A stretch of DNA of 64,000 nt from Aphelidium insulamus. Taxonomy: Eukaryota > Aphelidiomycota > Aphelidea > Aphelidiaceae. Position numbers and translations under genes: made by a program. The notes beneath the pieces are model-generated. The model saw only the letters and a program-made list of their open reading frames with translations, was not told the origin of the DNA and made no database searches. The stretch covers positions 598,501-662,500 of the forward strand of contig JAZDSV010000001.1 in the NCBI GenBank assembly GCA_036784855.1. The letters run 5' to 3'. Shown one piece after another: positions 5,901 to 54,559 of the stretch (positions within the stretch are counted from its first letter, which is position 1; the number at the start of each line of letters is the position of its first letter).

Positions 5901-7981
5901 CACTGCGATTGGAGCAGGCTCGGTCCCGGACAGCGCCACAGCCGGGCCTGTCAATCTATCGCCACTGGAATTTCAACTGCGCGATATTTGGTCACAAACT
6001 CTGTTTCCAACAACGGCTGGCTCGGAAAAGCAGCGCTTAATCGGTGTTGACGAGAACTTTTTTGACGCTGGAGGCCACTCAATTATCGCCACCAGGCTCA
6101 TATTTCAGGTTGCGTTAAATTTTTTCATCCTTGAAATTTTACCTTTAACACGCTTTCCAGATTCGTAAACGACTCAAGGTCCCCGCGGATGCGATTCCCC
6201 TCAATTTGCTTTTTAGCTGCCCCACCGTGCGATCCATGGCTGCGGAAATTGAAAAATTTGTGAATTTCGGCGTGGTCGAGAAGCGTGATAGACAAGATGA
6301 CTCGGTACCTGTCTCAACAGCAAATGACTCGGACAAAACACTTGTCGATTTGACATCTGAAGTGCAGCTTGATGACAGCATCAGACCTCGCCCCGGGCAG
6401 AAGCTAGTGTTTGAACTGCCGGAAATTCAAGGTACTCTGCCCGGTTCTTTCGAGCCAAAGTCAATATTTCTTACGGGAGCCACTGGTTTTCTTGGCGCTT
6501 TCATTTTGAATGACTTGTTGGTGACGTTTCCGCGTGCAGTTGTGCACTGCTTGGTCCGAGCAAAGACGCAGGACGCGGGATGGACCAGGCTGGAGAAGAA
6601 TATGATTGCGCATCACTTGTGGCGTGAAGGTTCCGCACGTAGTGATGTGCTCAAGGACTTGAAGTCACGGACGCGAATTGTACTCGGCGATCTGGCGTTG
6701 CCGTACTTTGGCGTCGGTGCCGACAACGACAGCAATTCCGATCTGCCTGCAGACTTTGTGCAGCTGGCAGATTCGATCGACTGTGTTGTGCACAATGGGG
6801 CACTTGTGCACTGGGTGTATCCTTACGCCAAGCTCAAACCGGCGAATGTTGGTGGTACCGTCGAAGCGTTGCGGCTATGCGTGACAGGAAAGTACGTTAA
6901 GCCGCTTCATTTTGTCTCGTCGACGTCAGTGCTGGACACGCCGCACTACACGGAGCAGCGGTTCACCAGTGTACTCGAGAGCGACGACTTGGAAGGCAGT
7001 AGGCATGGACTGAAGAGTGGATACGGACAAAGCAAGTGGGTTGCCGAGAAAATCCTGGAGCTTGCAGCCACAAGAGGTCCAGCCAATGGGGCCGAAGGTC
7101 CTGTGGGAGTACCCGTGACCGTCATACGTCCCGGCTACATTCTGGGCGACTCGCGAACTGGCGTCACCAACACGGACGACTTTATTTGGCGCCTTGTGAA
7201 GGGCTGTCTGGAGCTGGGCCAAGTTCCCGTCATGATCAATGTAGTGAATGCAGTGCCGGTGGACTACTGCGCCAAGATCGTGAGCTGCGTGGTGCAAAAG
7301 GGCGCGGCAGCTATCAAGCGTGGAGTGTTTCATGTGTGGAATCCACAGCGAATCCGCTTCTGCGACATCTGGGACTCGATGGTGGAGTATGGCGGGAGTG
7401 CCGCGAAAAATGGTATTCGTGGTGGCTGCACGGACGAAGGACATACTGAGGAACCGTGGAATTTGCAATACTGTCCATATCTGGAATGGCGGGACGCACT
7501 CAGCGAACGCACACTTGCCACTGATGACCACGCGCTGTACCCGCTGTTGCACTTTGTTCTGGACGACTTGCCCACCTCCACAAAGTCTCCGGCGCTGGAC
7601 TGGAAGAATTCGCGCTGGGCCCTTGAAGGCAGCGGTGTACGGTGCAGAGCTCTAGTGCGAAATCCCGCACGTAGATCTAGTCCGCGAAAGAGGTCGGGCG
7701 CTGCGGGATCACTGCACGGGCGCACTTCAAGCGGGCGTGGGACGCTCGTGACCCAAGTGTCCAACCTCAGCATGGCGGGAAGTGACGGCGCTGGCTCTGA
7801 AGACGATGTGACGCCGATGGAGGACAATGATGAGGAGGGCGATGGACAGGGGCCGCTGATGGAACGTTACTTTGACTACTTGTGCACGGTGGGATTCCTG
7901 CAGTGGCCGGCACACCGACGCCCTGCAAATGCATCGGAGACTGCTTCAGCCGACGCTATAATCACCCGTTCAAAGGGTTGA
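2987..7981 (+). CDS. LYS2: L-2-aminoadipate reductase (alpha-aminoadipate pathway of lysine synthesis)
   Basis: This enzyme activates alpha-aminoadipate as the adenylate, loads it on a phosphopantetheine arm and reduces it with NADPH to the semialdehyde, a step of fungal lysine synthesis. Eleven exons (2987-3118, 3169-3555, 3608-3733, 3783-3963, 4005-4196, 4257-4718, 4771-5037, 5081-5497, 5541-5783, 5828-6108, 6161-7981) sum to 1,502 aa. Domain order: condensation-like N-terminus; adenylation domain ([35 protein letters not shown]); carrier site DAGGHSII with the attachment Ser near 6080; reductase Rossmann fold ([13 protein letters not shown], about 6470) with a YGQSKWVAE catalytic block. 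The intron after 4196 is GC-AG (donor GCATGT). An acidic, low-complexity insert of about 70 residues (7650-7840) precedes the conserved C-terminal [11 protein letters not shown]. Length is about 100 aa above typical yeast Lys2. It needs a PPTase partner, which is not in the window. Confidence 0.96.
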
Positions 7982-20477: not shown

Positions 20478-23400
20478 CTAATTGTCAAATGGGTACGACT
20501 GAATGTTGCCATCCGATGGAATCACTATGCAGCCCTCCGAGTCAATGGTAAAGTCTTCAAGGATTTTTGCCCCGTTTCGGCTAGACAGCGGCAGTCCATA
20601 ATCCAATAGCTCTTTCCGGTCAAAGCTCTGGAGAACGTTGGTCAATTGAGTGCACCAATTGTCGCGTTGACTATCATTCGCTACGGAGAACATGTACGAC
20701 ACCTTCTTGCCAGCATTTGGATCAGTGTGTCTCGCTTTGATTTGAAAAACGTGTTTCATGAAAGGAGGCTCAACAACGCAACTCTTCCCCTGTGGAAGCG
20801 ACGCTCCGTTGTAGCGGAACGCCGAACGACCAGAAGTCAAAAAGGTAATCCCGTATCGACCCAATGTATCGCCCTGCAGCTGAAACGTGGCCTGATTCGT
20901 TTCCCCAAAAGTGACAAAAGACGGGATCGCCTTCATGCCATTGTGAGGAAATATTTTCACAACCAAGTCCGAATCTGGCCTCGGTATGGAGATTATAATG
21001 GGGGTCGATGCTTCGTGAATAGTCAGGCGAAACGGCAGTCTGGTCATTTTGATCTTGATCTTGTTGATTTCGTCGTCATCTTGCACCGCAGCCACGCCAA
21101 GCTTCTCCAGCAGCACACTTTCGTAGATTTGTTTCAAAATATCCACTGAAATGCTCCTATCGGAATCATGCACCCTGACTTTTGCGACAAAGTCTTTCAG
21201 CGACAAGTTGAGTTGATCCGCCGTGTAGTGCTGCGATGCCGATAAACCATCGTCATCTTTACGGTGCAATTCGGCGTTCAACATCAATATTGCGAACACA
21301 AGCTTCAGAGTCAGCGCGTTGGAGATAAATACATCCGAATTCGCAGCGTAAAATGAAGCCGAAAACTTGTCCAATATCCGATCAATTGTGGTTGGTTCAC
21401 CAGGGAGCCTAAATGATGCCAGAAAGACGCGCAAAGCTTCGTCGGGGCGCATTCCACTGAAATCGAAGGCTTGAAGAAATGCTGATAGAATGTCTTCATT
21501 TTCCTTGTTGCCAATAAATTTGCCAATTTGACGACGATTAAGCCCAGGAGTGCGGTACATGAAGGTTGCCATAGCGGACGGGCTGGCAATCAGCGCGCCA
21601 CGCTCAACCAGGTACGAAATTGCTTTCTTCGGATTAATTTCAAATTTGGCTATGGCTTTTGCCATTGTTGGTGTTTTTCGCATGGCGTCGAGAGAGTCTT
21701 CATTGCGAGTTGCTTTGAGCATCATGCTTTTCAGCATGAGCACAGATTTAAGCACAAATCGTCCTCGAGGTGGCGATCCACCGGAAGGATCTTGATTCGA
21801 TTCCTTTCCAATGATCAGAATGTCATTAAATAAGAACAGAGACCTTTCTTTAACCAAATTGGCATTGATAACTTCCCACACCGATCCTTTACATATAAAT
21901 CGGCGCCAAGGAGTTTCCAAATGTCTTACACTGCGTAACAGCGTATGAGTTGTAGAACCACGAGTGTCGACCGTGGATGTTTGTTGAATGTAATTTTCGC
22001 TTCCGAACGGGACTTTACTGCGTGATACCGTGTCGTCTGCAAATTATGTAATTGACCATACGCGTGAACGACAATAGCGGACTTACCTTGGTGTATGTTC
22101 CTCAACAAGACGTTAAAGTCCAGCTCGCCGCTTATGAGAGCATGTCGATCCAAATCGATAATGTCGCCTAAGTTACGCTCATCTTGTCCACCCAGCACGG
22201 AAGCACGCGCATACTCGAATTCGTCAACAAGCCTTTTAAATCGGGACAAGACCACAGTTAATAGTTCCTTATCTTGATGATCACTGGATGTAAACTCGTC
22301 AATTGCCACCAATTGCGAAACGTATTCTTCCAGCCGATCTAATGGTCGCAGCAAGAATTTTCCTAATTCCACACCAGCACCAAAGTCAATATCAACCTTG
22401 AAAGAATCCATGAGGTTACGAAACCCCGATGATTGTGCTGCATTCGCCGCTAAGCGCTGTTTAATGGCAGGGACTTGCTCCAAATAGCCTTGGTATAAGC
22501 TAGCAATGTTGGGCCTGTTATCCGCATCTGAGCTCACCAGCACGTCCAAAAATAGATCGCCCAAGCATAATACGTCGATTGCGCCATCATTTGGGGAAAC
22601 AGAGTAATCAACACTGCTGACACCAAGTGTGGCGCATAACGGTTTGTACACATTCTCCGCATGATACAGCTCAATGCTTTCGATCCCTGAAAAAAGGGAC
22701 GTGGCTTCCGTAGCAGGCAGAATCATTTGCTCCGCTACAAACGTTTTAACGGATCGCATAAGTAGCAATGTTTGCAGAAATCGTTGCTCTGATTGCAGCA
22801 GATCCCTTATAGCCTGTCGTCGATGTTGCTTCAAGTTTTTCAAGTTGGTGATATCAACTTCACGAAGTATCAGCAATAAATTTGTGCATAGTTGGCGCAC
22901 GCGTACCTGGTTTGTTCAAAACAGAAGCACGGATAGTGCGCAACATTTCAGCGGGCAGCATCTTTGGGGTGTCCTTCTTCACTGTCAGTGACTCCACGTG
23001 TGCTTTAAAGAGCATCATCGTTGACAAAACGCGCTCCGGATTCGTCCCATCCAGTAGCTCATCTACAGAGAATAGACTCTCTTCAGGAATGCCGCACATG
23101 TCGTACGCGGTAACCAGAAACACAAGGATCAGATTTTCCTCATTGGCTCCATTTTTGCGTAGTTCAGTCACAGTAGGTATATGCGAAAAATACATGCGGG
23201 CGAGCGACACCAACACACTTCCATCGGCCAGCATCTGCATCAGTCCTCGAAAGGCTCCATTATGCAGCCTTGGACGGCATCCCAGAATTTCTTCCAGCCA
23301 CTCGTTGATTACAGTTGCATCTTGATCCCATCGTGCGTTTGCATTTTGTGCATTTAGAGTAACGTCATTGGCATCAAGAGCATCCCATGCGCCGTATGAC

Positions 23401-26020
23401 GGATAAGCTGTTAGTTAGTGTATCAGCTGGATTTACCAAACTACAAAACAACTTGCCGTCTTGTGTTTCCGCGCTATGCAATAAATCTAAAGCGGATCCA
23501 GTAGAGCTTTTATAGTGTGAATCAGTGCTTCCTCGGCCTTGAGCTGAATTAAGGAATGAATTAATATCTGGCACGTAGGTAATCATTGCCTACCCTGGTA
23601 ATGACCACCGCTTAGCTGGCCAGAAGAATTTTGGCGACGACTAGGTCTTGCTGGTGCACTGGGCTGATGGTGCATCTTTGGCGCCAAACTGTTGCGCAAC
23701 TTCCTTGCATAATTTCGCCCAATGTAGCCGCGCCAAGCGCGCTGTATTTCCGTGGCCCAGTAGCTACGCTTCTGCTGAAGTAAATAATCCAGTACGGATA
23801 CCGCGACGGTCGATAGATGCATTCGCTGAAGTCCAATTTGATAAAGCGGCCCGGCCTCAGAGGTATCAAGCTGTTTAAATGCATGCTGCGCGATGTCCAC
23901 GCACTTGGCTTGCAGATCCGACATTGTATTATGCAAGTCCTTTTTGCCTTTTGCTTTCCGTCTACTCACCGTATACTGGTCGTGAGTGATGACATTGTAT
24001 CGTCGAAAGAATTCGAGGAACGTCATCTGGACTGGATACCCACTGCGATAGAGATGAACCACGTTTTCGAGCTGAGCAGATCGGGCCTGAACCAGCGCAT
24101 AATCCACATCAAATTCATTTACGTTCATATATACATTAGGCTTGATGCAAATGACGGAATGTATGTCCAGAGTGCCAACATGGTCTTGTACCAGCTGCAT
24201 GGCGTTGGTAAATCGGCCAATTAGGCCATGTGTACCGTCTGCGGGCATATAGTTATTAAATAATCGAGTAACTGACCCAATTCTCTGGCCCTCTAGTGCA
24301 CGAAGGAACATCTCGGGTGGGACCATTATACTATTGTGTGCCAGGAAATCTTCAACCTCGTACACCATTTCACCAAACGCGTGCACAACACCAAAAGCGC
24401 AGTCTTCCTGTTGCTGCGGGATAAAAACTTCCCCAGAATCACCGAAAGATTCCTGAATCTGGTATAGTAGTGTGTAAGTGGAAGGGTCGCGTTGGTTGGT
24501 TTCAAACTCGACCAACTCGTTAACGCTTTCAGCACCGGATTCCTGTGAGCCGTACATCAGATCGCGCCCGCATAGTATGGCGGCACAACGCTGCGTTGAC
24601 GCAAATTGTATGCGCTGCCATGGAATCCCATCCTCTTCATACTCGTCCTGCTCGCCTTCCAGAATTGACCGGGCAATCATGGAGTGGACAAGCTCGGCCG
24701 ACATATTAACCATATACTGGTTGAAGCAATTGCGTTCGCTCATTTCATTCCCCGGCATATCGAGTACACCTACCCACGCATCGTCGCAGTCTGGCGGGGG
24801 CGGCATCGCATCATTGGCGGCAGCAAGAAGCATATCGACCACTCGAGTGTATAAAATTTCCATAATTTTGTTACGACGGTCTACCAGCACACCAATTACG
24901 CTGTCGCCAACCGCCTGGCCAAAGTCCACACTGAGCAGGAAATCTTTCATGGCGGCGAAATCGGCGCCCAGAAGCAGACATGCATCGCGCAACGAGTCCA
25001 CCGAAAGCGGTTTGATGGTCACCTGTCGCTCTGTGGCGGACCTACCGCCAAGAACCGGCACAGCGATGAAATCAACATTGCCCAAGTGCAACAAGGCAGC
25101 AATCCAGCTGAGAACTTCGTGGCGTCGATTCTCCATGCCAAATGCTACGAGGCCTCGCCCCACTCTCTCAGTCCGTCGATACACTTGGCATCCATGTGCC
25201 GGTTGCTCTCGCCGCCCGCATGCCGAACAATGGCATAGTCGTGTAGGCGGTCAGAGAGGTAGAGCGCCTGCAGTTCATGCGGAGCGGCACCGCGCACCAG
25301 GTGGTAGAATATGTCATAGTTTTTCTCGCCGTCTTGCCGCGTCCACACTCGCGACGGTTCCATGCCGACAGCAGTGACGCGACATCCACTGATCACGGTG
25401 TTTGGGCCCTCGCCATCTGTGTCAAAGTATATTTGCGTGAATGTTCCCACCCGACTGGACCCGTGTGCGTTGAACAGTGTCTCGGCGCATATGAAGGGCC
25501 GTAACAGGGCCTGCACACTCTGCACGCGGTGTTCCATAGATTGCGGGTGCAGTTGGGCATCGTATATGGCGACGTCATCAGTGGCGGAAACACCGTCTTG
25601 GCGGAAGATGGCCGCAGTGCTCCTGCACGCCAGATAGTCCAGGATCATGTGGGCCGCGAATGACTTGCCACTTCCACTCTCGCCCGCCATAATGATTGTC
25701 TGCGGCCGCCGAGTAGACACCACTTGTCGGTGTGCGCGCTCAGCCACATCGTATGGATGAGGTGGCAGTCTCGACTCGACCTGTTCGGCGCTGCGCATAT
25801 TCGCGTATGCATACTTGTAACCGGGCGACGTGAATGTGGGCAGGTTCTCCCCGGGGTTGACGGCAAGCAGCACGCGTCCGCCCACGCCCGTGTATATCTC
25901 GCCGCTGGTGAAACGAGCGCGGAGCATATCTACAATTTCCTCTGTGCCCAGCGCATCCTGCGCACTGTTCTCCAGCAGATCGTCGGGCGGCAGCGCTGTT
26001 TCGGCGGCATTGTCGGCCAT
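20478..26020 (-). CDS. Myosin motor fused to IQ, calponin-homology, RhoGEF (DH-PH) and Arf-GEF (Sec7-PH) domains
   Basis: About 1,790 aa. From the N-terminus (right end): motor with P-loop GESGSGKS (residues 113-120), altered switch I NAHGSSRVG, switch II LDMPGNE, actin-site block VICIKPN, and one IQ motif IQRAWRGYIGR (about 23720). A CH domain follows (NEWLEEILGC to about 22990), then DH (about 22880-22080), PH (WRRFICKGSVWEV onward), Sec7 (about 21680-21100) with the glutamic-finger block FRLPGE, and a last PH (FSVANDSQRDNWCTQL). Introns at 23568-23593 (26 bp), about 23390-23440, 22862-22910 and about 22035-22085 join in frame, and DH, PH, Sec7 and PH share one message. The motor frame breaks by one base near 25145-25165. 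DH activates Rho-type and Sec7 Arf-type GTPases in known families, so an actin-based carrier of two GEFs is inferred. I know no described myosin class with this order. Confidence 0.85.
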
Positions 26021-26260: not shown

Positions 26261-28270
26261 CTATGCCTGCAATACGAGGCTCTTGCGGGCCTTTAGAGTG
26301 TGGGCGACAAAGTCTTTCACGCTGGCGAAGGGATCTGCCTCAACACAGCTTTCAAAGGGCATAGGCGGCACAAATGCACTCGGCTCCACGGTGGTGGTGT
26401 AGTCGTTGAGCTCCAACTCCTCCTCCAAAACACTCTCGTACACCGACACGAAGGTGCCGTCCTTGTGGTCCACGTAGATCTCGTTGGTGTTGACATCATC
26501 CAAAACGCTGAGCACGTTGATGAAATGGTCCACTACGCGTCCATTGCGGGTGACGGTAGCGTTGTACTGTAGGACGTTAATACTACATCAAGTAATTTAG
26601 CAGATGACTCTCTGCTTGCCTCGACCTGCTTGAAGACGTTCAGCTCCGTCTCGGCCTTGACACTCAGGCAGGTGGGCAAGTCCGTCACGTACAAGTACGC
26701 GGCATCCTATGACAACATGGAAATCTCAGTATGGTGCTCAGTATGGGATGCGCAGACTACCTTTTCAATGAACAACTGGATGTCGTTGTCAGTGGTAGCG
26801 AGTGCAACGTGACCGTTGGCAACGTCAAATGCGATTTGACCGTTCATCTCCAAGCCGCCGTCAGTGAACTTGGCCGCAAACTGCTCTACCTTGGGGAACG
26901 CAATAGCTTTCGATGCTTGTTTCGAAAAGTTCTTGTACTTTTTAGCCACCAATATCGCATCTTTCACACTCTTGATGCTATCCGGTGCCTCGACACAGCT
27001 TTCAAAGGGCATAGGTGGTACAAACGCACTCGGCTCCACGGTGGTAGTGTAGTCGTTGAATTCAAGCTCTTCCTCCAAAACACTCTCATACAGCGCGACA
27101 AATGAGTGATCCTTGTGGTCCAAGTAGATCTCGTTACTGCTGACATCATCGAGAATGCTGCGCACATTTGTGAAATGGTCCACTACGCGGCCTTCGCGGT
27201 TGATGGTGCCATTGTACTACGGCAAAGTAAATACTAGGGTATTGATACTTGATAGTTCAAACTTGCCTCGACCTGCTTGAAGATGTTCAACTCGGTCTCG
27301 GTTTTTACGCTAAGGCACACGGGCAAGTCCGTCACGTACAAGTATGCGGCGTCCTACATAAGTCAGAATTAATTGTATCATTGGACCACCACGCTTGCGT
27401 ACCTTTTCAACGAAAAGTTGGATGTCCTTGTCACTGGTGGCAAGCGCAACATGACCATTGCTCACGTCGAATGCAATTTGGCCGTTCATCACCACGCCGC
27501 CGTCGGTGAACTTGGCGGCAAACTTGTCCACCTTGGGGAACTCGATAGCGCTTGAAGCAGGTTTCGCAAAGTACTTTTTGTACTTTTTCGCCACCAAAAC
27601 CGCATCTTTGATACTCTTGATGCTGTCGGGAAGAGGGGTGCAGACTTCAAATGGCTGCGATGGCACAAACAGGCTTGGCTCCACGGTGGTGGTGTAGTCA
27701 CTGAATTCAAGGTCCTCCTCCAAAAGGCTCTCATACAGTGCCACAAATCCGTGGTTCTTGTGGTCGACGTAGATCTCATTGTTGCCGTCTCCATCGAGCA
27801 GGCTGAGAACATTGACAAAGTGATCCACAGCTTGTCCATTGCGCATGATTGTCGCGTTGTACTGTAGGTACGATAAGTCAATGATCAGTAAGAATATCAA
27901 TGCACTGACTTGCCTTGACATTCTTGAAGATGTTCATCTCGGTCTCTGCCTCCACGCTGACGCAGACGGGAAAATCTGCCAAGTACAAGTATCCGGCGTT
28001 CTTCATTAATATTAAATATTCAGCGACTATAAATGTCATGCACGTAAATAATACCTTTTCAATAAACAGCTTGTCGCCCTCGCTGGATGTGAGCACAGCG
28101 TGTCCGCCGGGCACGTCATATGCAACGTGGCCATTCAACTCGTTGCCACCATCGGTGAACTTGGCAGCAAACTTGTCCACCTTGGGGAACGGGATGTCTT
28201 TGGGGGTCGGGCTGGCCAAAGACGTCACGGCCAGCACGGAGAGTGCAAGGGCAGAGTACTGAGCGAGCAT
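26261..28270 (-). CDS. Secreted protein with three tandem copies of the local family domain
   Basis: The protein has 565 aa in seven exons: 28055-28270, 27914-28000, 27403-27861, 27267-27353, 26761-27216, 26620-26706 and 26261-26566. All introns are phase 0. One signal peptide (AQYSALALSVLAVTSLA) precedes three repeats of about 185 aa. Each repeat has a KFAAKFTDGG start, a VEK or IEK exon end, an 87-bp middle exon (YLYVTDLPVCLSV type) and a last part with NEIYVDHK, DYTTTVEP and PPMPFESC. The first intron of each repeat is GT-AG and the second is GC-AG in all three. This shows that whole intron-containing units were duplicated. Repeats 2 and 3 are closest to each other. Two Cys per repeat may form a disulphide. 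No family was recognised. The absence of membrane segments fits a wall, vesicle or secreted role. Confidence 0.85.
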
Positions 28271-28438
28271 TTTAAAATCTCTTGAGGATTGCCACCGTGT
28301 GGGAACATTACGGCGCTTTGTAAGCACGTGGCGCAGTGATTGTCCAAGCACGGATTGTCAAAGGCGGCATAGGTTGTTAGCTTGTTGCCTAGCAACGCTT
28401 TGAGCATAAGTGACACGAGCACCGGCACTGTTCCTCAT

Positions 28439-29876: not shown

Positions 29877-29959
<83 letters not shown>

Positions 29960-29965
29960 ACACCC
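29877..29965. repeat. (CA)n microsatellite, about 40 units
   Basis: A long ca-dinucleotide run lies between the stop codon of mtIF3 (29834) and the start of the SH3 gene (29973), so it occupies the whole promoter interval of the downstream gene. Confidence 0.97.
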
Positions 29966-52573: not shown

Positions 52574-52783
52574 TTTTGGGGATGGGAAGCATTTTTTTGC
52601 GCCGTATTTTTGACGTCACTTAAATATTGTTTCCATCGAGGCACCTTGTACAATTGCATGACAAAGATAATTCATATATAGAGTTATATTGAGTTCTGGC
52701 CGCACCTGAGCGGTTATTTGTCGTTGTGTGGGCGATGGCGAACACTCTTTCCGCACTTTTGCCAACAACTCTTCTTACTATCT

Positions 52784-54559
52784 ATGGACCACAATACAGC
52801 TGCCGATGAACTGGTCAAATGTGTAGTGCAGTCGTGTCAGACCGCGCTGGCCCGCTGCAGCGACGATGCCGCAAATGGACCAAGATATGTGGACGCGATA
52901 CTGGCGCCGATAACCCACTTGAACAGACGGTACCTTTCACGCACGAGCGGCGACACGACGATGCAAGCGATCGCCGAACCGCTGGCTCACGATGAACTAC
53001 TACTGGCCAGTTTGCGCGATAAGTGGACCACACGCACCGCGTCTGAGAATGTGACGATATTGCGACATGGCGTGACACAGCTGCTGCGGCACCTTCGCGA
53101 TGCACACCGACACCTGCGCACTGCCACTGTTACGCACCATGGCAGTGATAAGACTACGCCACCGAAGATTCCATCGGCACCGCAGCCGATTGTCGATGAT
53201 TGCGATACCACTTCGTCGAATAGGTCATTGGCGAACGGGAAGAATTTGACGGTAATATTTCTCCAACTGGACAGCCATTGCAGAAGACATTTTGTGGAGT
53301 GCAATGGGCCGCCTTCATTGCCAGCAATATTTGGCGCTGTATATCCCGAATACGACTGTAACACCTGGCAGCGCGCACGTTACTTCCACCTCAAGCTCGA
53401 CGCAGAATTTGGGGTCATGTACGAGGATGGCGTGGATAATTCGCTACCAGTCCACAATGGCGACATCTATCGCGCGCAGTTGGCTCCTAGTACCACAGAT
53501 AACACGACACCAGTTATGGGTACCAAGAACCCATCAAGTTGCTCAGAGAACATGACCTCATCTCGGCCAACACTGCAAAAGTGCCTGCAAGCAGCAGCAA
53601 CACTTCGACATCACCTGGCAACTACCCGACTAGAGTTCGATTGCGGTCGACGCGACATTGCCACACAGCTGGATGCGACGCGGTCCAGGCTTACCGAAAC
53701 CATGGCTGGCATTCTGTCTGCTCTTGATTCCTCATCACAGAGCTCAACGCCGGCCATCAACAACAAAACCACCACGACACGGCCCTACATGCCGGATGAG
53801 AAGCGCGTCCATGGTCTGGCGGTTCAACTGGCGGCGGTGGCCGAGCACACCGCAATCCTAAAACAAGATTTGGTGGTGAGGTCCGCGGTGCCGCCACCAG
53901 CGCTTCTGCAGCACTCGCTGGCCGACATTGAGACTGTTCGCGCACACTGCCACCAACAACTGGCATGCGCCACCGCAGCCAAGGCGCAGTGGAAGGCGGT
54001 GTGGGAAACGGAGTTGGCGCGTATTGTCGGCGAGCAGACGCGTTTGGGGCGCTGTACTGCCGACCTTACGGAAGCCGTGGCGGCGTGTGACGAGCTGGTG
54101 GACACTGTTAAACAGCTGCAGCAAGCATCGGCACTCAAGGCGACTCTGCCGGTCACTCCTCCGCAACTGGTTGATTCAAGCGCTGCTTCCAGTGTATCGG
54201 GCAGTCAAAGCAGTCTGGAACAAGTGCTGCATGAACTCACGGCAACTGTGGCACTGGCATCTGTCACTGGTGATTCTGGCAACACTACAGCTGCGGACAA
54301 TGAGACACCCGCGTCATCATCATCGGCTAATTCGGGTGCCAGTGACAAGCGCGTGCAAGCGATGGAAAAGCATGAGCGGTGGAGGCGGCGGGAGCTAGAG
54401 TGGCGCAGACGCGAGGGAGACACGTTTGGGAGGGAGCTGCATGATTTCGTGGCCGGGAAGTGTCTGAGACGGACGGACGGCGGAATCGCCCTTCTGGAAC
54501 ATGAGAGGAGTGTTCGTCGACGCGCGCTGCTCGCCGCCACCGTAGTGCGGCCCACTTGA
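52784..54559 (+). CDS. BUD6: Bud6/Aip3-family actin and formin cofactor
   Basis: This is a single exon of 591 aa; ATG 52784 is the first in frame. The Aip3 central domain is recognisable at about 53240-53500: LTVIFLQLDSHCRRHF, PPSLPAIFGAVYP, GVMYEDGVDNSLPVHNGDIY. The C-terminal core is the strongest match (about 54345-54540): KRVQAMEKHERWRRRELEWR, FGRELHDFVAGKCLRRTDGG, ALLEHERSVRRRALL, the family pattern ELxDFVxxxKLKKxGGxEEVERxR. Bud6 binds actin and formins and promotes filament nucleation at polarity sites. The family is best known from fungi, which supports the fungal assignment. The N-terminal half before the Aip3 domain is less conserved. Confidence 0.85.
   Translation: MDHNTAADELVKCVVQSCQTALARCSDDAANGPRYVDAILAPITHLNRRYLSRTSGDTTMQAIAEPLAHDELLLASLRDKWTTRTASENVTILRHGVTQLLRHLRDAHRHLRTATVTHHGSDKTTPPKIPSAPQPIVDDCDTTSSNRSLANGKNLTVIFLQLDSHCRRHFVECNGPPSLPAIFGAVYPEYDCNTWQRARYFHLKLDAEFGVMYEDGVDNSLPVHNGDIYRAQLAPSTTDNTTPVMGTKNPSSCSENMTSSRPTLQKCLQAAATLRHHLATTRLEFDCGRRDIATQLDATRSRLTETMAGILSALDSSSQSSTPAINNKTTTTRPYMPDEKRVHGLAVQLAAVAEHTAILKQDLVVRSAVPPPALLQHSLADIETVRAHCHQQLACATAAKAQWKAVWETELARIVGEQTRLGRCTADLTEAVAACDELVDTVKQLQQASALKATLPVTPPQLVDSSAASSVSGSQSSLEQVLHELTATVALASVTGDSGNTTAADNETPASSSSANSGASDKRVQAMEKHERWRRRELEWRRREGDTFGRELHDFVAGKCLRRTDGGIALLEHERSVRRRALLAATVVRPT

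Follow-up and report, generated by a model that had tools for sequence, protein, structure and literature searches.

A myosin head, a RhoGEF domain and a Sec7 domain joined in one gene of Aphelidium insulamus

Introduction

Coupling of the Arf and Rho pathways is normally the work of separate proteins, which meet at the cell cortex. A stretch of 64,000 nucleotides from the genome of Aphelidium insulamus (GCA_036784855.1, contig JAZDSV010000001.1, positions 598,501 to 662,500 of the forward strand; hereafter the window) raises the question of whether a myosin motor and the guanine nucleotide exchange factors (GEFs) of both pathways can be parts of a single polypeptide, or whether neighboring genes have been read as one. 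A first-pass annotation of the window described one gene fusing a myosin head with calponin-homology (CH), RhoGEF (DH-PH) and Sec7-PH domains. We find that this GEF-myosin gene is real and is one gene, a description that is borne out by in-frame introns and by three proteins of the same domain order, one of them transcriptome-derived. The gene represents a real kind of myosin, and probably one that is undescribed. With moderate confidence, we propose that its product is an Arf/Rho exchange factor anchored on actin, in which the head is chiefly a tether and not a transporter, as in the class XVII chitin-synthase myosins.

Gene structure and domain content

The GEF-myosin gene lies on the minus strand of the window (start 26020, stop 20478) and has six exons coding for about 1770 amino acids. 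The domains follow in the order myosin head, IQ motif, CH, DH, PH, Sec7, a beta-rich stretch and a putative second PH, and are distributed among the exons as follows:

25183..26020, minus strand: exon 1, with the start codon and the N-terminal part of the motor (P-loop GESGSGKS, switch I NAHGSSRVGTF)
25145..25182, minus strand: break of the reading frame within the motor, representing either a 38-nucleotide GT-AG intron or frame-slipped coding sequence (assembly error or real lesion)
23594..25144, minus strand: exon 2, with the remaining motor (switch II LDMPGNE, relay region, VICIKPN) and the IQ motif IQRAWRGY
23544..23593, minus strand: intron a, 50 nucleotides, GT-AG
23445..23543, minus strand: exon 3, 99 nucleotides, a poorly conserved IQ-CH linker; the frame is also kept if it is skipped
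23408..23444, minus strand: intron b, 37 nucleotides, GT-AG, with a CTAAC-like branch point
22907..23407, minus strand: exon 4, the CH domain
22858..22906, minus strand: intron c, 49 nucleotides, GT-AG
22087..22857, minus strand: exon 5, the DH (RhoGEF) domain, Pfam match 22810-22220
22037..22086, minus strand: intron d, 50 nucleotides, GT-AG
20478..22036, minus strand: exon 6, with PH1 (about 21926-21672), Sec7 (21671-21105, FRLPGE), the beta-rich stretch and PH2 (about 21071-20637), and the stop codon

None of introns a to d has a length divisible by three, and each of them restores the frame, so that reading runs on from the second motor part to the stop codon. The IQ-CH, CH-DH and DH-PH2 joins are therefore in frame, as the first-pass annotation had it.

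The domain search proposed with that annotation recovered three of the large domains in a Pfam scan of the window protein, which listed 12 families at E values up to 10. Myosin_head matched with 246.8 bits (curated cut-off 33.3), RhoGEF matched C-terminal to the head with 54.3 bits (cut-off 27.6) and Sec7 matched with 162.3 bits. The FRLPGE block of the Sec7 domain aligns with the glutamic-finger block of ARNO/cytohesin-2, and the catalytic glutamate is present. Cytohesin/ARNO and IQSEC/BRAG are the closest solved Sec7 sequences and folds. No CH family was among the 12 families of the scan, and the CH call draws on other evidence; the closest folds to this domain are the CH domains of the Rho GEFs ARHGEF7 and Vav1. 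The order CH-DH-PH known from such exchange factors is present in the window protein, its PH scoring below the Pfam cut-off.

Relatives with and without a head

A search with residues 800-1770 of the window protein, in which the 8000 best candidates were scored, gave seven matches, and three of them (P0001, P0002 and P0003) cover more than 90% of the query region. All three carry a myosin head, RhoGEF and Sec7 and align colinearly with the window protein, P0001 and P0003 without the first part of the head. The same architecture thus exists in other organisms. P0002 is transcript-derived and has the prefix Partr_v1, by which the proteome of the aphelid Paraphelidium tribonemae, a parasite of algae, is known; according to the accessible text of its description (PMC6299283), RNA assembled de novo was the source of this proteome. 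The glutamic-finger block is found in all four proteins as FRLPGE, but as FRLSGE in P0001.

Because the domain order recurs in three other proteins, one of them from a transcriptome assembled de novo, adjacent genes can be ruled out as a general explanation. For the window itself, it is very improbable that two or more neighboring genes have been misread as one. The introns were placed by hand, which leaves some room for such a misreading, but the joins are in frame from the second motor part to the stop codon and the three relatives keep the order.

A profile search with the GEF tail (7998 candidates scored) gave 14 matches, including the partial relatives P0008 (751 amino acids) and P0009 (481 amino acids), whose short models contain no head. 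Their contigs are also short (8702 and 1736 bases, respectively), and the models may have been cut at an exon or contig edge. RhoGEF scores above the Pfam cut-off in all five scanned proteins that hold a DH domain (the window protein, P0001, P0002, P0003 and P0008).

A different set of relatives came from a search with the Basidiobolus protein P0010. It returned 37 matches, six of which span more than 90% of the region: P0010 itself, three further Basidiobolus proteins, the Gigaspora protein P0024, and P0025 (together P0010 and P0021-P0025). The proteins of Basidiobolus ranarum and Gigaspora rosea have the same PH-Sec7-beta-PH module as the window protein. Sec7 and PH were matched in all six, whereas myosin, CH and RhoGEF had no match in any of them. 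The search is not a census, for its candidates must share exact words with the query and it left P0001-P0003 and P0008 unlisted, relatives though they are; the statement that land fungi have no such motor extends to these six proteins, five of them from Basidiobolus or Gigaspora, and to their gene models.

The PH domain after Sec7 in the window protein is tentatively called by homology, from a partial PH above the cut-off in the aligned P0024 and weak matches in P0001-P0003; no such PH was among the 12 families listed for the window protein itself. The beta-rich stretch (21071-20800), which follows Sec7 and precedes the end of PH2, is common to the aligned P0010 and P0021-P0025, and its predicted structure in the relative P0008 is of high confidence. 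A fold match for this stretch was not found in a structure comparison that was dominated by Sec7 and DH matches and so barely probed it.

The frame break in the motor

Exon 1 and the rest of the motor sit in different frames, with the break near 25182-25145. The first-pass annotation had overlooked this one break. We enumerated frame-restoring, stop-free GT-AG and GC-AG pairs of 20-139 nucleotides between 25330 and 25060, and most of the resulting introns would delete conserved motor sequence. Three options were scored against the myosin profile: a frame slip, read through with X (259.9 bits), a 29-nucleotide GT-AG intron (254.5 bits) and the 38-nucleotide GT-AG intron at 25182-25145 (250.8 bits). 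The last of these restores the frame but trims a segment of the motor that is longer in P0002, and has a GC content of 63% versus 36-45% in the four other introns.

The GEF tail is intact and unaffected by the break. Yet a true frame shift could have made this a damaged copy, in which the motor is cut and possibly only the downstream GEF part is made. The better score of the read-through than of either tested intron and the GC richness of the 38-nucleotide candidate are in keeping with damage of this kind. We nevertheless regard it as improbable, as the remaining gene is free of stops and its four other introns are intact, one assembly error would give an identical picture, and a canonical GT-AG intron of a length close to that of intron b is available.

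Conservation and phylogeny of head and tail

Pairwise identities among the window protein, P0001, P0002 and P0003 differ markedly by domain. The best-conserved part is PH-Sec7-PH (40-67%), with 49-61% identity in PH1, 49-54% in Sec7, 40-56% in the beta stretch and 64-67% at the end of PH2. The motor (26-32%), CH (14-28%) and DH (25-38%) diverge faster, spanning 14-38% together, and the IQ neck is 30-46% identical. The last 52 residues are 31-40% identical and the two linkers 4-31%. Like the domain order, its presence in other organisms and the Sec7 catalytic glutamate, the faster divergence of the head relative to PH-Sec7-PH is seen directly in the proteins. Together with the loss of motor residues in the aphelid head of P0002, these identities suggest that the stable output of the protein lies in its Arf exchange part and that the head apparently tolerates the loss of motor residues.

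The contrast between DH (25-38%) and Sec7 (49-54%) would also fit a scaffold that matters solely for the activation of Arf through Sec7, with DH and perhaps the motor left as inactive relics. The existence of PH-Sec7-PH proteins without DH in Basidiobolus and Gigaspora is consistent with this idea. Active DH domains carry the pattern RP-x-x-R-x-x-x-Y, T-x-x-x-H-x-D, however, and the window DH holds it. With RhoGEF also above the Pfam cut-off in every scanned protein that has the domain, we consider a scaffold of relics unlikely.

Trees of the tail and of the motor bear on the history of the fusion. In the tail tree, the four headed proteins plus P0008 and P0009 split from P0010 and P0021-P0025 with support of 100/100, and the window protein groups with P0008 and P0001 (95/97). 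In the motor tree, which has 16 rows and long branches, the four GEF myosins form one branch (98/97) and the window protein stands beside P0001 (94/89), a join that the program flagged as long-branch. The GEF myosins fall on one side with three chitin-synthase (class XVII type) myosins of the same genome, identified by Chitin_synth_2 matches (L009, L010 and L011, on contigs C97, C53 and C22), with weak support (90/96). This join involves the longest branches in the tree and may be false. The three chitin-synthase heads lie outside the GEF-myosin branch; the forks around those heads are unsettled, and nesting among them is possible. On the whole, head and tail appear from these trees to have traveled together since one event.

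We tentatively suggest, at somewhat less than even chances, that flagellated fungi and aphelids have a myosin class of their own, whose head became the actin anchor of a dual Arf/Rho exchange factor and which links cortical actin, Rho signaling and Arf traffic within one polypeptide. Either land fungi would have lost the head-CH-DH part and retained PH-Sec7-PH by itself, or this part would have been gained once in the flagellated group.

A proposed role at the cell cortex

In an actin-anchored exchange factor, the myosin head, with its IQ neck and perhaps the CH domain, would hold the protein on cortical actin while the PH domains attach it to the membrane. Through its glutamic finger, Sec7 would charge Arf with GTP and so promote vesicle traffic, and the DH domain would act likewise on a Rho-family GTPase, so that actin is assembled at that very site. 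The main function of the head would be that of a regulated tether and not of a cargo transporter. We infer actin binding, both exchange activities, membrane docking and tethering alike. There is precedent for such a head in the class XVII myosins, as far as the available text of one study goes: in A. nidulans, the heads of CsmA and CsmB bind actin in vitro, and localization depends on this binding, CsmA tolerates mutation of its P-loop or switch I, and U. maydis Mcs1, for which no motor activity was detected in vitro, has been proposed to act in tethering (PMC4425547).

The first-pass annotation had suggested a slow motor or an anchor. The fast divergence of the motor favors the anchor, as do the key residues missing from the aphelid protein, and the slow motor becomes the main rival. 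It would be an active slow or processive motor carrying both GEFs along actin to sites of growth or phagocytosis. The head of the window protein indeed keeps GESGSGKS, the SSR of switch I, the D/G/E of switch II (LDMPGNE), the relay helix and VICIKPN, and switch II is intact in P0001 (LDVGGFE). On the other hand, the window head has a one-residue insertion in switch I and an F to N change in switch II, and P0002 has GRHGSGKT as its P-loop, no recognizable switch I motif and DLPGYR as its switch II. The head is also among the less conserved parts of the protein. An active motor is thus fairly unlikely in our judgment.

Several points weigh against the actin-anchored exchange factor that we favor. 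Because the frame slip fits the myosin profile best, an intron is no more likely a cause of the motor break than an assembly error or a true lesion. With its P-loop, SSR and D/G/E kept, the window head may be that of an active motor, and even the aphelid head of P0002 reaches 262.6 bits as a myosin head. The DH domain is weakly conserved and its CR3 segment is altered in P0002 (FLMIPLYRTDIH), so that Rho exchange may not be a general property of these proteins. Faster divergence of the head can reflect adaptation and not relaxed constraint. Finally, the two trees disagree on P0002 and P0003, which are paired by their motors (97/94) and not by their tails, although the tail forks concerned have weak support (68/90 and 43/38).

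If the proposal is true, a single chain with a head and both exchange factors would connect actin, Rho and Arf physically and directly. It could show how aphelids and flagellated fungi organize feeding, crawling or early delivery of the cell wall. It would also be the second case in the fungal lineage, after chitin synthase, of a myosin head fused to a membrane enzyme, suggesting that anchor heads are a repeated solution.

Comparison with known proteins

A myosin head and a DH domain are also joined in the orphan myosin M (MyoM) of Dictyostelium, which is not known to have CH or Sec7-PH. MyoM is described as a myosin with a putative RhoGEF (DH) tail (Oishi et al., 2000, by its title as cited in PMC1634994), and by this description it shares the union of head and DH in one protein with the window protein. 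Sec7, present in the window protein, is not mentioned for MyoM in the text of PMC1634994 that a term search brought up. A RhoGEF-bearing orphan myosin is mentioned in a figure legend (PMC2375034).

Class XVII myosins resemble the window protein as we propose it to work, in that a diverged head would be the actin tether of a membrane enzyme. Their tail is a chitin synthase, whereas that of the window protein consists of GEFs, and no chitin synthase was among the 12 Pfam families listed for it. Vav, PIX and Cdc24 share the order CH, DH, PH with the window protein. Unlike them, the window protein has a myosin head before this block and Sec7-PH after it. Cdc24 has a C-terminal PB1 domain, which has no counterpart among the 12 families of the window protein. 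Cytohesin/ARNO and IQSEC/BRAG have a Sec7 domain with the glutamic finger followed by a PH. The window protein has such a Sec7 domain and, by homology, a putative PH after it, and differs from them in the extra PH before Sec7, the beta-rich stretch and the motor-CH-DH part.

A literature search of partial coverage, with few subscription papers, found no myosin-Sec7 fusion and no protein of this domain order; as far as this coverage goes, it agrees with the first-pass view that the order is undescribed. In the searchable text of two myosin classifications (PMC3942036 and PMC5583752), neither "RhoGEF" nor "GEF" or "Sec7" as the start of a word occurs. The Paraphelidium authors recorded the domain architectures of its myosins in Supplementary Data 5, according to the accessible text of their paper (PMC6299283). 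The architecture of P0002 may already be recorded there, because that table covers the Paraphelidium myosins.

Genome context

The assembly searched comprises 18 Mb in 169 contigs, with the window inside contig C1. Manual grouping of 49 matched myosin segments (the two of the window included) gave at least 12 other myosin genes in it, and at least 10 Sec7 segments and at least 29 RhoGEF segments were matched, the window's own included. With these other matches in the genome, the GEF-myosin gene is an addition to the usual set of myosins and GEFs and not a substitute. Two of the three chitin-synthase myosins have very long branches and strongly diverged heads. Two Sec7 segments of equal score and profile range (C17:18560-18910 and C155:3335-3685) perhaps belong to duplicated or haplotype contigs.

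We also identified in the window a gene for AIP3, a Bud6-type actin interacting protein (52682-54559, plus strand, E 4.9e-20). Together with the three chitin-synthase myosins, this gene speaks for a fungus or an organism closely related to fungi. A match to a radial-spoke family suggests a flagellum.

On the plus strand, an open frame without a Pfam match ends 33 bases past the GEF-myosin stop codon. Upstream of the gene are three tandem copies of a small-protein gene that share VDHF-N-V and DYTTTVEPS-FVP (26261-26587, 26707-27216 and 27310-27933, minus strand) and a partial fourth (27878-28357, minus strand); no Pfam match was obtained for the last three of these four frames (26707-28357). 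Further away, the window holds an NAD_binding_4 reductase (6149-7981, plus strand, E 5.4e-62), which we take to resemble the end of a Lys2-type aminoadipate reductase, and a CA repeat of 43.5 copies (29877-29963).

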